Assembly (NCBI RefSeq): GCF_008274215.1
Contig: NZ_VTPS01000007.1
Coordinates: 1 to 64,000, forward strand
DNA: 64,000 nt
Source: Calorimonas adulescens
GTDB lineage: Bacteria; Bacillota; Thermoanaerobacteria; Thermoanaerobacterales; UBA4877
Reading direction: 5' to 3'
The notes under the pieces were generated by a model that was given only the letters and a program-made list of their open reading frames with translations, made no database searches and was not told where the DNA came from. Numbering within the stretch: the first letter of the stretch is position 1; each line of letters opens with the position of its first letter. The position numbers and the translations under genes were made by a program. Shown here piece after piece: positions 1-36,525 of the stretch.

Positions 1-26
1 AAAGCCCCCCATATTTTGATTCTTTA

Positions 27-84
27 AGGTGACATTTTCATGCGATAATTAACCACATTTTGGCCTATTTTTAGGTGACATTTT
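27..84. repeat. Two direct copies of AGGTGACATTTT, possible IS21-like element end
   Basis: The 12-mer AGGTGACATTTT occurs at 27-38 and 73-84, 46 bp apart, in the gene-free first 215 bases. Multiple short TGACA-containing end repeats are typical of IS21-family termini (family knowledge from memory). No transposase is inside the window, so this could be an element end whose body lies to the left, or a remnant. Nothing else is recognisable between 1 and 215. Confidence 0.35.
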
Positions 85-215
85 TAAAAGATATTGACAT
101 AGTCTTTTGAATATACCTTCAAAAAGACAGGTGCCTTTTATCCCCTCTCAAAAATAATTTATGTAATCGTTTCATGTGAAACCATTATCTTACAATTATG
201 CTATATTCTTGTTTT

Positions 216-594
216 TTAATTACCTTTCCTAATTACATGTCCTATGCCCTTAAACTTCAGTGCATCGGACCGCTGCACAGATATCATAAGGCCGCTGGAG
301 GTTTGGGGATCATACAATATGTCTTGCATGTATACCGATCAAAGCATCAGCAGCACTTATAGTTCCATAATTATAGGGATTATCTACAATCGGCGTAAAA
401 AAGTCCAAAGTATGGATAACAGCGGTATTTTCATTTAACATGTGCACCGCAGTGTCATCACCGGCTTCCATATCTACCAGCAACTTGTCGTTTTTCATAA
501 CAGGTATATAACGCAGAACCTGCGTCAGGGTATCCAAACTCATTTTTGATGCTCAGCCCGCACAGGTGGTAAGATTTGTAAGCTTGATATCCAT
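216..594 (-). pseudogene. selD: selD remnant (selenophosphate synthase), selenocysteine-type, internally deleted
   Basis: The ATG at 594 has a GAGGGAAG-type SD upstream. Translation gives MDIKLTNLTTCAG, then UGA at 555-553, then ASKMSLDTLTQVL. This matches the SelD N-terminus, where the UGA falls on the catalytic Cys/Sec position (Cys17 of E. coli SelD, in GAGCGCK). The SelD-typical stretch LLVDMEAGDDTAV...DFFTPIVDNPYNYG follows. At about 335-345 the frame breaks, and another frame continues as ILYDPQTSSGLMISV, which is the SelD C-terminal signature DPQTSGGL, ending in TAA at 216-218. About 200 residues of the usual 340-350 are missing, including most of the catalytic core, so the gene cannot make a working enzyme. 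It lies 20 bp downstream of comEA on the same strand. An intact copy elsewhere in the genome cannot be excluded. Confidence 0.85.
511..525 (-). promoter_or_regulatory. Candidate bacterial SECIS hairpin of the selD remnant
   Basis: On the minus strand a perfect 6-bp stem ACGCAG/CTGCGT closes a 3-nt loop GTT. The loop begins 33 nt after the UGA at 555-553. As I recall it, the bacterial SECIS consensus is a short stem, a small apical loop with G in the first two positions, and 16-37 nt between UGA and loop; this hairpin fits. It supports the UGA having once been read as selenocysteine rather than being a random stop. Confidence 0.6.
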
Positions 595-613
595 CTGTAT
601 TCACTTCCCTCGA

Positions 614-1270
614 TTATATTGTTATCTTATCCTTGATATTTTCAAATGTCTTGGGACCTATCTTTTCCACATTCATAATGTCCTCAATTTTCTTAAACGG
701 GCCATTGGCATTTCTGTATTCTATTATCCTTTCCGCAAGTACATCTCCTATGCCGGGCAACGATTTTAACTCTTCCAACCCCGCAGTGTTTATATTTATT
801 TTATGCAAATTCGCAGGCGCCGGGCTTGTTGAAAAATTTGCCGTTGCAGTGGCTGGATTATTTGATACCGGTATACTTTCCCCTTTTTTAGGCACATATA
901 CCTTTTCTTCATCATTTAATTTTTTTGCCAGATTAAGGCTATCAAGGTCAGCCTCATCTAACGGACCCCCGGCCATATTAACGGCATCAATAACACGCGC
1001 ACCAAACTGCAATTCATAAACACCAGGATTTTTCACCTGACCCGCCACATGGACAAATACAGTCTTTGTTTCCAATTCTCCCTGGGTTTTATCCTTAGAA
1101 GCAGATACAACATTTTCATCTGTCACCTCTACATTCCCCTTGTCACTTTCACCTGCCTGTATTACGGTAACATCACCTGAATCCGATCTTATGTAAAAAA
1201 TTATGCAACCTGCAACCGCTATCATGACTAATATCATTATTAGAAATCCCTGCATTTTTTTAAAGTTCAT
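614..1270 (-). CDS. comEA: ComEA, DNA-binding competence/uptake protein
   Basis: This is a 218-residue membrane-anchored DNA receptor of the natural-transformation machinery, which binds incoming double-stranded DNA outside the membrane. A hydrophobic anchor sits at about residues 8-27. A SLBB domain (VFVHVAGQVKNPGVYEL...) spans about 70-131, then a Ser/Thr/Pro/Ala-rich linker, then a helix-hairpin-helix pair (NINTAGLEELKSLPGIGDVLAERII) to the C-terminus. The SD GGGAG lies about 9 nt before the ATG. Its comEC partner is not in the window. The gene is divergent from the carboxypeptidase gene and directly followed by the selD remnant, so the two were probably co-transcribed. Confidence 0.92.
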   Translation of the reverse strand: MNFKKMQGFLIMILVMIAVAGCIIFYIRSDSGDVTVIQAGESDKGNVEVTDENVVSASKDKTQGELETKTVFVHVAGQVKNPGVYELQFGARVIDAVNMAGGPLDEADLDSLNLAKKLNDEEKVYVPKKGESIPVSNNPATATANFSTSPAPANLHKININTAGLEELKSLPGIGDVLAERIIEYRNANGPFKKIEDIMNVEKIGPKTFENIKDKITI

Positions 1271-1377: not shown

Positions 1378-2631
1378 ATGAAAAAGTTCTTAGTTATGTA
1401 CATATTGGGCATGATTATATGTATGTCCTTACCTTTTGCAAGAGTTGCAGCACAGGATTTAGATATTTCTGCTCCATCTGCTGTATTAATTGACTTCAAT
1501 ACAGGCCAGTTCCTTTATGAAAAAAACGCAGACCAGAAGATGTACCCCGCCAGCATCACAAAGATACTCACTGCTATTATAGCACTGGAAAATTCAAATC
1601 TCAATGAGCAGGTAACAGCTGGCGAAGATGTACTTAATGTAGATGGAAATAAGATATATATTTCACCTGGAGAAACCCTCTCAATGAAGGACCTGATATA
1701 CAGCCTGCTTATTGCATCGGCAAACGACTCTGCCATTGTGATAGCTGACCATGTTGGCGGCAGTGTAAAAGGATTTGCAAACATGATGAATGAAAAAGCA
1801 AAAGAACTTGGTGCAAAAAACACCCATTTTACTAATCCAAATGGCCTGCACGATGATAATCATTATACTTCTGCCCGTGATATGGCATTGATTGCCAGAT
1901 ATGCAATGCAAAATGAAACTTTCAGGAAAATAGTTACAACCATGAAATATAGCATACAACCTACCAACAAATTTGACAAGGTAAGGGAATTGTACAACGA
2001 AAATAGGCTCCTGAAAAATACAAAGTATAAGTACGAAGGAGCAGACGGCATTAAGACAGGATATACAATCAAGGCCGACCAGACACTGGTAGCAAGTGCC
2101 ACAAGGGACGGTCACAGATTAATTGCTGTAATTATGGGTGCAAAGGGTACAAAAGTATGGGAGGATGCTATTTGCCTGCTGAATTACGGGTTTAATAATT
2201 ATAAGCTGGTTTCATTAAATAATAAAGACGATGTTATAACCACAATGAATTTTGATAATCAGAAAATAACATTAAAATCTAATAATAGCTTAGCGGCTGC
2301 GGTACCTGTTGATGCACAGGATATAACAAAAAAAATAAGCATAGTTGAAAATATATCCTTCCCTTTAGACGCAGGTACTGTACTTGGAAAACTTGAATAT
2401 TATATAGGTGATAAAATGATAGGGTCTGTTGATCTCGTAACCGACAAGTCGTACCAAAAGGGGTTATTTGGAAAGATACATGTTGTTGGAGAAGATAACG
2501 GCATCAAAAGTAAAATAATATATACTCTCTTTTTTATAGTTATTTCCGGGACAGCCTTGTTGTCTTTTCTGTTTTTAAAAAGAGCAAAGCAAGATAAAAA
2601 ATTTATGTTTAAAAGATCAGATGAGTGGTAG
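1378..2631 (+). CDS. D-alanyl-D-alanine carboxypeptidase, S11 family (DacF-like)
   Basis: This low-molecular-weight penicillin-binding protein trims the terminal D-Ala from peptidoglycan stem peptides outside the cell. A signal peptide covers about residues 1-26 (ending RVAAQ). The three active-site motifs are present: S59-I-T-K62, S114-A-N116 and K226-T-G228. After the catalytic domain comes a beta-rich PBP5-type C-terminal domain and a hydrophobic segment near 385-405 followed by Lys/Arg residues, a membrane anchor rather than the usual amphipathic helix. The length, 417 residues, fits DacF/DacA-like proteins. The SD AAGGAGGAC precedes the ATG. The stop lies 1 bp from the stop of the convergent regulator gene, and a small GTGGTA/TACCAC hairpin spans the two stops. 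Confidence 0.93.
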   Translation: MKKFLVMYILGMIICMSLPFARVAAQDLDISAPSAVLIDFNTGQFLYEKNADQKMYPASITKILTAIIALENSNLNEQVTAGEDVLNVDGNKIYISPGETLSMKDLIYSLLIASANDSAIVIADHVGGSVKGFANMMNEKAKELGAKNTHFTNPNGLHDDNHYTSARDMALIARYAMQNETFRKIVTTMKYSIQPTNKFDKVRELYNENRLLKNTKYKYEGADGIKTGYTIKADQTLVASATRDGHRLIAVIMGAKGTKVWEDAICLLNYGFNNYKLVSLNNKDDVITTMNFDNQKITLKSNNSLAAAVPVDAQDITKKISIVENISFPLDAGTVLGKLEYYIGDKMIGSVDLVTDKSYQKGLFGKIHVVGEDNGIKSKIIYTLFFIVISGTALLSFLFLKRAKQDKKFMFKRSDEW

Positions 2632-8375: not shown

Positions 8376-8999
8376 TCACTCCTGATACAAATGGTTTTTC
8401 TGAATATATCTCTCTACTGCCTCAGGAAGCAGGTACTTTATGGGCTCCCCATGGGCTACTCTTTGCCTTATATCTGTCGATGATATGGCAAGGGACGGAA
8501 CCTCAACCCTGAATATATCCTTATCATAAGTCTTCTTTATATATTCCAATTTGTCAGCCAGATCCTTAGTATTAAATCCAGGTCTGGTGGCTGCGACAAA
8601 GTTACAAAGATTCAATAGCGTATCAATGTCCTTCCATTTCAATATTTCCAAAATTGCATCGGCACCTGTAATAAAATAGAACTCAAAATTTTCCCCATAT
8701 ATGGTCTTAAATTCTTTCATAGTATCAACAGTATAGGTATACCCCTCTTTGTTGAGTTCAATTGCTGAAACCTCAAAATTAGGATTGGTCACAGTGGCCA
8801 GAATAGTCATTAAGTATCTATGTTTTTTTTCAGTAATAACCCTGGCCTCTTTGTGTGGCGGATTACCCGATGGCACAAAAATGACTTTAGCAAGGTTGAA
8901 CTTGTATCTTACTGCTTCGGCGGTAACAAGGTGCCCATAGTGTATGGGGTCAAATGTACCCCCCATGATTCCCACCTTGATATGGTTATCCAATCCCAT
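8376..8999 (-). CDS. nadD: Nicotinate-nucleotide adenylyltransferase
   Basis: It adenylates nicotinate mononucleotide to deamido-NAD in NAD synthesis. The nucleotidyltransferase signature [11 protein letters not shown] is near residues 13-23 and the second motif SSTDIRQRV near the C-terminus; the length of 207 residues is usual. It is the first gene of a nadD-yqeK-lytR-rsfS unit with its own promoter candidate at 9042-9071 and a terminator upstream. A nicotinate phosphoribosyltransferase, supplying its substrate, is encoded elsewhere in the window. Confidence 0.97.
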
Positions 9000-9413: not shown

Positions 9414-10688
9414 CTATTCAATATATTCAAATTCAAATCCTCTTACACTTATATAATCACCATTCTTAAGCCCCATGTTTTTAAGCTCTTCTAATATACC
9501 ATATTTCAACAGGGTATTCTGGAAATATCTTAATGAGTCTTCATCAGTGAGGTTCACCCTTTTTAATATTCTATCTATCATCGCCCCGGAAAGCTTAAAG
9601 GTATTCCCATCTATTTCAATGTCTATCTCTTTTGTTTCTTTTATCGGTGGAGGTAAAGTGACAATCTCATCCTCTTGGGGGATATCTTCTTTTTTTTCAT
9701 CTTTAAAAAATGTCGAGACCTCCTTTAAAAGTTCATCAACACCTTCTGTAGTAACTGAAGAAATACCAAATACTCTATAGCCTTTAGACTCTATTTCTTT
9801 CTTAAACCGCTCGTATATCGTCCTATCCTCAACTATATCCAACTTTGTTGCAACAACCAGTTGGTTTTTTTTTGATAGGTCCTCATTATATAATTCAAGC
9901 TCTTTATTTACTTTCTCAAAATCCTCAACCGGGTCCCGCCCTTCCATTCCTGAGACGTCAACAAGATGGAGGAGAAGTCTTGTCCTCTCTATGTGCCTCA
10001 AAAATTCATGTCCAAGTCCTACACCCACGTGGGCCCCTTCAATAAGACCCGGTATATCTGCTATGACAAAGCTGGTATCATTGTAGTAGCACACCCCTAA
10101 ATTTGGTGTGACAGTAGTAAATGGATAATCTGCTATCTTTGGCCTGGCCTTTGTCAAAACCGAGAGAAGCGTAGATTTGCCTGCATTTGGAAAACCTATA
10201 AGACCTACGTCGGCTAATAGCTTGAGCTCCAGTATCAGCCATCTCTCAACCCCGGGGTCTCCACTCTCAGCAAAATGTGGAGTCCTCAAGGTAGATGACT
10301 TAAACCTAGCGTTGCCTCTACCCCCTTTTCCACCTTGAGCTGCAATTACCCTCTGACCTGGCCTGGCCAAATCATAAAGCACATCCCCTGTATCAGGATC
10401 TTTCAAAACAGTACCTACAGGCACCTTTATAACAAGGTCTTCACCGTCCCTTCCATGCTTATTGCCACCCATACCGTTACCACCATTTTGGGCTTTATAG
10501 TGCTGCCTATACTTAAAATCCATCAACGTCTTGAGGTTTGGGTCAGCCATCAATATGATATCTCCGCCATTACCCCCGTCTCCACCATCTGGACCACCAT
10601 AAGCCACAAACTTTTCTCTTCTAAATGAAATCACTCCATTACCGCCATCGCCGGCCTTTACATATATCCTGGCTCTATCAACAAACAT
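9414..10688 (-). CDS. obgE: GTPase Obg/CgtA
   Basis: An essential GTPase in 50S assembly and stress/sporulation control. At 424 residues it has the glycine-rich Obg fold (GDGGNGVISFRREK, DGGDGGNGGD) in the first 155 residues. The GTPase domain follows (P-loop GFPNAGKST, DIPGLIEGAH, ATKLDI), then a C-terminal OCT domain found in Firmicutes Obg. It sits next to the Spo0B-like gene as in B. subtilis spo0B-obg. Two copies of the GGCCWGGCC palindrome lie inside it (10141, 10360). Confidence 0.98.
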   Translation of the reverse strand: MFVDRARIYVKAGDGGNGVISFRREKFVAYGGPDGGDGGNGGDIILMADPNLKTLMDFKYRQHYKAQNGGNGMGGNKHGRDGEDLVIKVPVGTVLKDPDTGDVLYDLARPGQRVIAAQGGKGGRGNARFKSSTLRTPHFAESGDPGVERWLILELKLLADVGLIGFPNAGKSTLLSVLTKARPKIADYPFTTVTPNLGVCYYNDTSFVIADIPGLIEGAHVGVGLGHEFLRHIERTRLLLHLVDVSGMEGRDPVEDFEKVNKELELYNEDLSKKNQLVVATKLDIVEDRTIYERFKKEIESKGYRVFGISSVTTEGVDELLKEVSTFFKDEKKEDIPQEDEIVTLPPPIKETKEIDIEIDGNTFKLSGAMIDRILKRVNLTDEDSLRYFQNTLLKYGILEELKNMGLKNGDYISVRGFEFEYIE

Positions 10689-10696
10689 AAAACCAC

Positions 10697-11104
10697 CTAT
10701 CCGACCCTTTCTAACATTACTTTCCCGTTGAAAAGAAGCCTGAGATGAAGTTCCTCATAGCCGTTTGCCACTGCATCATCGATGTATCCATTCAACTGGT
10801 TCTCTATTTGACTATAATCCTCATCAGTGCAAACCATATCCGAAAGACCATCTACATCTATATCAAGTCCAATAAAGTTCTCCTTAGCCCTATTATACCC
10901 TTTTATTAAGACATATTGCATACGGTAATCACTAATATGTGATATTCTGGATTCAGCCTCCATCAACCTGCTTATCTTTTTAATGTATTCGATAGCTGCG
11001 TCCTGCCTACCCAGCTGGATATACCCCATTATCACCTGCAGGTCATTCAGGTAGATATGCCTGTATCCTTTTAGAATATCAATCATGTCTTTTTCAGTAA
11101 ACAT
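10697..11104 (-). CDS. Spo0B-like phosphotransfer protein
   Basis: A short protein of about 135 residues. Its first half has the Spo0B four-helix hairpin signature: R-H-I-Y-L-N-D-L-Q-V-I-M-G, where the His is the expected phospho-acceptor and N-D-L-Q is the family hallmark. The C-terminal half is a reduced domain without ATP-binding motifs, as in Spo0B. The position between rpmA and obgE is the spo0B slot in Bacillus and many Clostridia. In Bacillus Spo0B relays phosphate from Spo0F to Spo0A; whether it does so here is inference. The ATG at 11104 is chosen for the G-run about 10 nt upstream. An earlier in-frame ATG at 11122 has no SD. Confidence 0.75.
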   Translation of the reverse strand: MFTEKDMIDILKGYRHIYLNDLQVIMGYIQLGRQDAAIEYIKKISRLMEAESRISHISDYRMQYVLIKGYNRAKENFIGLDIDVDGLSDMVCTDEDYSQIENQLNGYIDDAVANGYEELHLRLLFNGKVMLERVG

Positions 11105-36273: not shown

Positions 36274-36289
36274 TTGATTTCTCCCTTCT

Positions 36290-36412
36290 CATGCCTCCGA
36301 GGTTAGCTGACGGGTTCGGGCCGAAGGTAACCCTACCATCAGGCGAAACTGATAGATTCACCCCAAAATACGTCCCCCGTACCTTTTGCAAGGATTCGGC
36401 AGCCTTAGATAA
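36290..36412 (-). promoter_or_regulatory. Cyclic di-AMP riboswitch (ydaO/yuaA type)
   Basis: On the minus strand the conserved blocks appear in order: GCTGCCGAATCC, GTACGGGGGA, TTGGGGTGAATC, AGGGTTACCTTCGGCCCGAA, then CCCGTCAGCTAACCTCGG. This is the ydaO aptamer as I know it. It ends about 17 nt before the ATG of the NlpC/P60 gene, so the final stem lies next to the SD. The class generally switches expression off when c-di-AMP is high. No separate terminator hairpin is obvious, so control may be translational. Confidence 0.92.
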
Positions 36413-36438: not shown

Positions 36439-36525
36439 TGGTGCCGAGAGCGGGACTCGAACCCGCATGAGGAATCCCTCACTACCCCCTCAAAGTAGCG
36501 TGTCTGCCAGTTCCACCATCTCGGC
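36439..36525 (-). tRNA. tRNA-Leu (anticodon GAG)
   Basis: Acceptor GCCGAGA pairs with TCTCGGC; the 3' CCA is encoded. The anticodon stem CTACT/GGTAG closes the loop TTGAGGG, giving anticodon GAG. The long variable arm (TGAGG..CCTCA) and GGTTCGAGTCC T-arm confirm class II tRNA-Leu. It reads CUC/CUU and matches the CUC specifier of the leuS T-box. Confidence 0.95.

Follow-up and report, generated by a model that had tools for sequence, protein, structure and literature searches.

A broken selD with an in-frame UGA and the scattered remains of its cluster point to fairly recent loss of the selenocysteine trait in Calorimonas adulescens

Introduction

Is a fragment of selD that carries an in-frame UGA the remnant of a lost selenocysteine (Sec) trait, a redundant copy in a genome that still uses selenium, or a fault of assembly? 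The question is raised by the first few hundred bases of a 64,000-nucleotide stretch of the Calorimonas adulescens genome (contig NZ_VTPS01000007.1, positions 1 to 64,000, hereafter the window; the contig is called C7), where an earlier reading of the sequence, the original prediction, had placed a selD remnant. Use of Sec is gained and lost dynamically among bacteria, and its loss is patchy among close relatives (PMC1794560; PMC5029168). In Yersinia pestis CO92 and Mediaevalis selB is a pseudogene with one frameshift, while selA, selC and selD are present (PMC1273633). Helicobacter pylori and H. acinonychis have lost the Sec trait, leaving an intact selA that is thought to have changed in function (PMC4607533). 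Among the papers searched, we found no report of the lineage of Calorimonas adulescens.

The genome (G000) is a draft of 54 contigs with a completeness of 98.67%. We compared it with other genomes of the order, above all with its nearest relative, G001, which belongs to the same family, in order to establish what the selD fragment is, whether its UGA had encoded Sec, and what is left of the Sec machinery elsewhere.

Results

Structure of the selD relic

On the evidence of profile match, alignment and reading frame, window positions 171 to 594 (minus strand) are a selD pseudogene of C. adulescens. The features at this end of the window are as follows.

1..99, no strand assigned: end of a repeated element (IS-like), where C7 breaks off; copies lie on other contigs
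171..330, minus: selD pseudogene, C-terminal piece (HMQDILYDPQTSSGLMIS...), placed by DNA alignment with G001 and by reading frames
From near 185-190 to about 171, minus: old selD stop, then the old selD-selA spacer, from the G001 alignment
340..594, minus: selD pseudogene, N-terminal piece, residues 1-85/86 (MDIKLTNLTTCAG-U-ASKMSLDTLTQVL...SAADAL), from TIGR00476 and identity with G001
511..525, ends approximate, minus: SECIS-like hairpin ACGCAG-GTT-CTGCGT, about 28 bases after the UGA, intact
553..555, minus: in-frame UGA, the putative ancestral Sec codon, 14th codon down from 594
614..1270, minus: comEA (helix-hairpin-helix), intact, directly upstream of the relic, from the open reading frame list and synteny with G001
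1378..2631, plus: D-alanyl-D-alanine carboxypeptidase gene (dacF-like), an intact flank, from a syntenic gene match

The SelD profile TIGR00476, in a family search of the genome, matches C7:325-585 on the minus strand (E 1.7e-21) over profile positions 1-90, with one in-frame TGA. This match, confined to positions 1-90, scores 77.2 bits and falls short of the curated 125 bits, a functional SelD being defined here as a full-length open frame above that score. Comparison with the intact selD locus of G001 agrees: in DNA, window 339-660, a stretch that includes the 3' end of comEA, is 76.7% identical (E 3e-67) and window 86-329 is 67.6% identical (E 3e-27), and in protein the N-terminal piece is 72% identical to G001 SelD over 86 residues. 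Both lines bear out the predicted selD remnant with an in-frame UGA, as well as the proposal that N- and C-terminal pieces are joined with about 200 residues missing: the relic runs from residue 1 to 86 and resumes at residue 289 of the 335-residue protein (289-335), the middle (residues ~87-288) having been deleted. The single frame change that had been predicted is found at the junction (window ~330-339), but there is a second near window 236, past which the relic reads RKVIKKQEYSIIVR-stop in continuation of the G001 C-terminus GRVIEKREYDIIVK. Of the limits first given, 216-594, the end at 594 holds and the other does not, as homology to G001 extends beyond the selD stop to window ~171 (TAATGGTTTCACATG). 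Measured against the intact orthologue that G001 has at this site, the relic is thus truncated and frameshifted, and its constraint is relaxed.

Relaxed selection on the relic

In the N-terminal piece, ten changes at first and second codon positions fall on the C. adulescens branch versus one on the G001 branch (sign test p = 0.006; a small count, with changes assigned against outgroups), and the conserved DDAAVY has become DDTAVH. Counts of this kind indicate that selection on selD is relaxed on the C. adulescens branch. Differences per codon position are 17/7/37, and since third positions hold most of them (37/61) selD was under constraint through much of the period that followed its divergence from G001. 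With so few changes counted, and with third positions strongly diverged (0.43-0.53 per site in neighbours), we give no date for the loss.

The UGA as a selenocysteine codon

The UGA of the relic aligns with the UGA of SelD in G001, G009, G010, G011, G013, G021, G040 and G049, an equivalence that holds for the SelDs that were aligned. One in-frame TGA is present in every full-length SelD found in the order, and in nearly all of those in the phylum sample. The conserved lysine that follows the catalytic Cys/Sec (U-A-S/A-K) is kept, the relic reading AG-UGA-ASK as its relatives do. Just 3' of the UGA lies a SECIS-like hairpin common to the relatives, ACGCAG-GUU-CUGCGU in both the relic and G001, CACAG-GUU-CUGUG with changed flanking pairs in G009, G010, G011, G013 and G021, and GCGCAG-GUA-CUGCGC in G040. 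The order-wide UGA, its aligned position and the retained hairpin all favour the predicted selenoprotein ancestry: as far as sequence can say, the relic descends from a selenoprotein SelD and its UGA was a Sec codon.

The cluster and its broken halves

At the same place G001 has an intact cluster, comEA-selD-selA-selB-gerMN-selC. The full order at this locus (L054) is LeuS, a YheO-like gene, dacF, comEA, selD, selA, selB, a gerMN lipoprotein gene and tRNA-Sec, then a holin-like gene, a hypothetical gene, ilvE, an alaX-like gene and a Ca-ATPase gene; names of flanking genes were judged from the look of the sequence. The same complete and apparently functional cluster, comEA-selD(UGA)-selA-selB-gerMN-selC, appears under Thermoanaerobacteraceae bacterium Yes75-04 (JASEJQ010000026.1), a contig equal in synteny to C33 of G001, whereas its counterpart in C. 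adulescens is broken.

The left half of the G001 order is retained in C. adulescens on C7 and ends in the selD relic. The comEA-selD order is the same as in G001, and comEA is 66% identical to its G001 counterpart at the amino acid level; the dacF-like gene is 74% identical to the syntenic gene of JASEJQ010000026.1. Farther into the window, a c-di-AMP riboswitch (ydaO/yuaA leader, 94 bits; 36276-36411, minus strand) adjoins a tRNA-Leu gene (36442-36525).

The right half lies on another contig, C10. There, after cobalt-transport genes, come the final 50 codons of selB, gerMN and tRNA-Sec, and then the holin-like gene, hypothetical gene, ilvE, alaX-like gene and Ca-ATPase gene. The feature concerned is:

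C10 17574-17723 of G000 (8575-8724 of locus L055): selB stub, 50 codons in frame, overlapped by gerMN

Lying directly before gerMN, the stub is 74% identical over 50 amino acids to residues 576-625 of G001 SelB (E 4e-16) and matches Pfam SelB-wing_3 (E 1.6e-11); it was probably kept because the overlapping gerMN has its ribosome binding site within the stub. Taken together, the two halves imply that the cluster broke within selD and again within selB and that all of selA was lost.

The tRNA-Sec gene on C10

ARAGORN names the tRNA on C10 as tRNA-SeC, its UCA anticodon is kept, and both ARAGORN and Rfam still place it above threshold, with an Rfam score of 50.7 bits versus 74-76 in relatives. 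Four of its 27 stem pairs are broken (1-93, 28-44, 69-85 and 73-81), two of them in the T arm. No pair is broken in G001, G009, G010, G011 or G018, and one each in G013 and G021. All seven relatives share one sequence of the T arm and 3' acceptor strand, and only C. adulescens departs from it in the T arm. The tRNA-Sec structure that was used is backed by pairs in the variable arm and the anticodon stem in which, across the set, both bases have changed. Promoter-like boxes upstream (TTGACA, TAATAT) are intact and alike in G001. Judged by its broken stems, this selC is eroding, and the tRNA probably no longer works; its survival is probably owed to its small size and its position between kept genes.

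What remains of the Sec machinery

The original prediction had offered two readings, loss of selenium use or a redundant copy beside an intact one, and had proposed a search for intact selD, selA, selB and selC. Family searches of the C. adulescens genome found none of the first three intact, while selC is present in damaged form. With TIGR00476 there is no second SelD above the cut-off; remaining matches score at most 78 bits and have similar counterparts in other genomes, Sec-less ones included, a pattern to be expected if they are other AIRS/PurM superfamily proteins. The search for selA, which is above the cut-off in 6/24 genomes of the order, returned no match. Matches to selB, apart from the 50-codon relic, are other translation GTPases. 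A candidate selB pseudogene on C4, a match with two TAA codons, was rejected, as it is an intact EF-Tu gene and the match runs past its stop.

A selenium-cofactor trait (yqeB and yqeC) is not expected without SelD, and for the selenouridine trait no ybbB/selU match was found in this genome or in the whole sample of the order. The search for selenoprotein users covered glycine reductase and formate dehydrogenase genes. It found no grdA, grdC, grdD or grdE, no full-length grdB, and no fdhA over the cut-off in C. adulescens. A GRDB match at C3:137378 (83.5 bits) was rejected as glycine reductase: it is a 174-residue gene (G000:C3:137375-137899; L180 7376-7900) inside a PTS-type operon, and relatives have similar genes of 179 residues, some with stops inside the match. 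Weak grd matches on C1 (E 6e-4 and 3e-3; ~30% identity over 50-110 residues), which sit in intact frames of 337 and 345 residues, were taken as distant cousins. G001 has a cluster grdX-trxA-grdE-grdA(UGA)-grdB(UGA)-grdC-grdD; the selenoproteins seen there are GrdA, GrdB and SelD, and its formate dehydrogenase has no in-frame UGA. With no selA, no ybbB, selB reduced to its stub, tRNA-Sec damaged and no intact glycine reductase or formate dehydrogenase selenoprotein genes, it is the first of the two readings, loss of selenium use, that the genome supports; the redundant copy is unsupported.

The contig end

Base 1 of the window is the end of C7. Copies of window 1-99 that are 97-100% identical occur at C1:383-481, C31:1-99, C37:1-99 and C39:5758-5864; judged by these coordinates, all four lie at a contig end or close to one. 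The adjoining stretch on C1 has no match in Pfam or NCBIfam, and between the repeat and the old selD-selA spacer (window ~100-171) there is no selA protein match. The contig end, which is in a repeat, is 170 bases away from the relic, so that the local structure beyond the repeat is out of view; what the draft lacks could in principle include selA.

A second, separate loss

G018, a genome of one closed contig from another family of the same order, has no selA or selD over the cut-off. Its tRNA-Sec is intact (75.3 bits, 27/27 pairs) and lies among gene relics, at the site where G013 has grd-selD-selA-selB-selC. The features of this locus (L183; G018:C1:1666500-1686000) are:

Near 10071: tRNA-Sec
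10242-10656: two selB relics (~65 and 78 residues)
10919-11008: grdD relic, 30 residues

Because this genome is closed, the worry over assembly is removed here. The pair of cases shows that tRNA-Sec outlives the protein genes in two separate losses.

Discussion

We conclude, with high confidence, that the fragment is the dead remnant of a Sec-encoding selD and that the lineage lost the entire Sec trait fairly recently. Comparison of the clusters indicates that deletion has removed all of selA and the greater part of both selB and selD, and that selC is eroding. The loss most likely began with the glycine reductase selenoproteins, GrdA and GrdB, which would have left SelD as the sole remaining user of Sec; the machinery would then have served only itself, and selection on it would have ended. 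Deletions and rearrangement between selD and selB would have removed the core, the leftovers drifting since. Both this users-first order and the reason proposed for it are inferred. Neither the selD piece nor the tRNA-Sec is expected to function; without selA and selB the UGA is unreadable as Sec, so that the N-terminal piece would yield at most a 13-residue peptide.

Three other explanations were weighed. An assembly error at the contig end, by collapse or by misjoining, would mean that the genome itself has a full selD and perhaps the whole cluster. It is suggested by a draft of 54 contigs and a relic that lies close to a repeat-bearing end, but it would explain neither the substituted invariant residues and two frame changes of the relic nor the absence of selA throughout a nearly complete genome, and the selB stub and damaged selC lie in an unbroken stretch of C10 in which cobalt-transport genes occupy the place of selB; we consider it very improbable. 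Still harder to credit is a redundant second copy, with an intact selD elsewhere serving selenium use. Some relatives do have two or three selD genes (e.g. G039, G038 and G047), but the relic occupies the site of the single copy of G001, selA is absent, and the other matches to the SelD model score as they do in every genome.

The remaining alternative is that the tRNA-Sec and selD fragments have not decayed but been repurposed, as a serine-carrying, UGA-reading tRNA or as a short regulatory peptide or RNA. The persistence of tRNA-Sec beyond selA, selB and selD in both losses, its intact structure in G018 and the promoter-like boxes kept in C. adulescens lend this some appeal; against it stand the four lost stem pairs, two in the T arm, and the frameshifts and changed invariant residues of the selD pieces, while recent loss accounts equally well for the intact tRNA of G018. 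Repurposing of the C. adulescens fragments is accordingly given very little weight. A related and broader idea, that orphan tRNA-Sec in the Thermoanaerobacterales was kept through two losses by a past or present second use, such as a serine-carrying UGA-reading tRNA, strikes us as improbable, if a little less so.

Decay after recent loss of the trait, the reading that we prefer, resembles the case of Yersinia pestis: in both, Sec decoding was lost recently, a broken sel gene marks the loss, and other parts of the sel system survive. The two differ in that C. adulescens has no selA and that its selD, selB and selC are either wrecks or damaged genes. As in Helicobacter, the loss of the machinery is lineage-specific and has left a sel gene behind, but here the leftovers are pseudogenes. 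Whereas the surveys cited above mostly score presence or absence, the physical remains described here show where the genes broke and how far their decay has gone. That bacteria lose the Sec trait is already well documented, and C. adulescens is a new and rich fossil of it, and no new kind of system.

Usually the loss of the 21st amino acid has to be inferred from missing genes; in this genome the remains can still be read. With an intact cluster in a relative and a second loss nearby, the order of steps becomes a testable proposal: selenoprotein users first, then deletions in selA, selB and selD, and the tRNA last. A further lesson is that neither a SelD fragment nor a tRNA-Sec call is by itself evidence that a genome uses selenocysteine. 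If a second use of the tRNA were true, an orphan tRNA-Sec would be no mere debris but a regular step on the way back to 20 amino acids.
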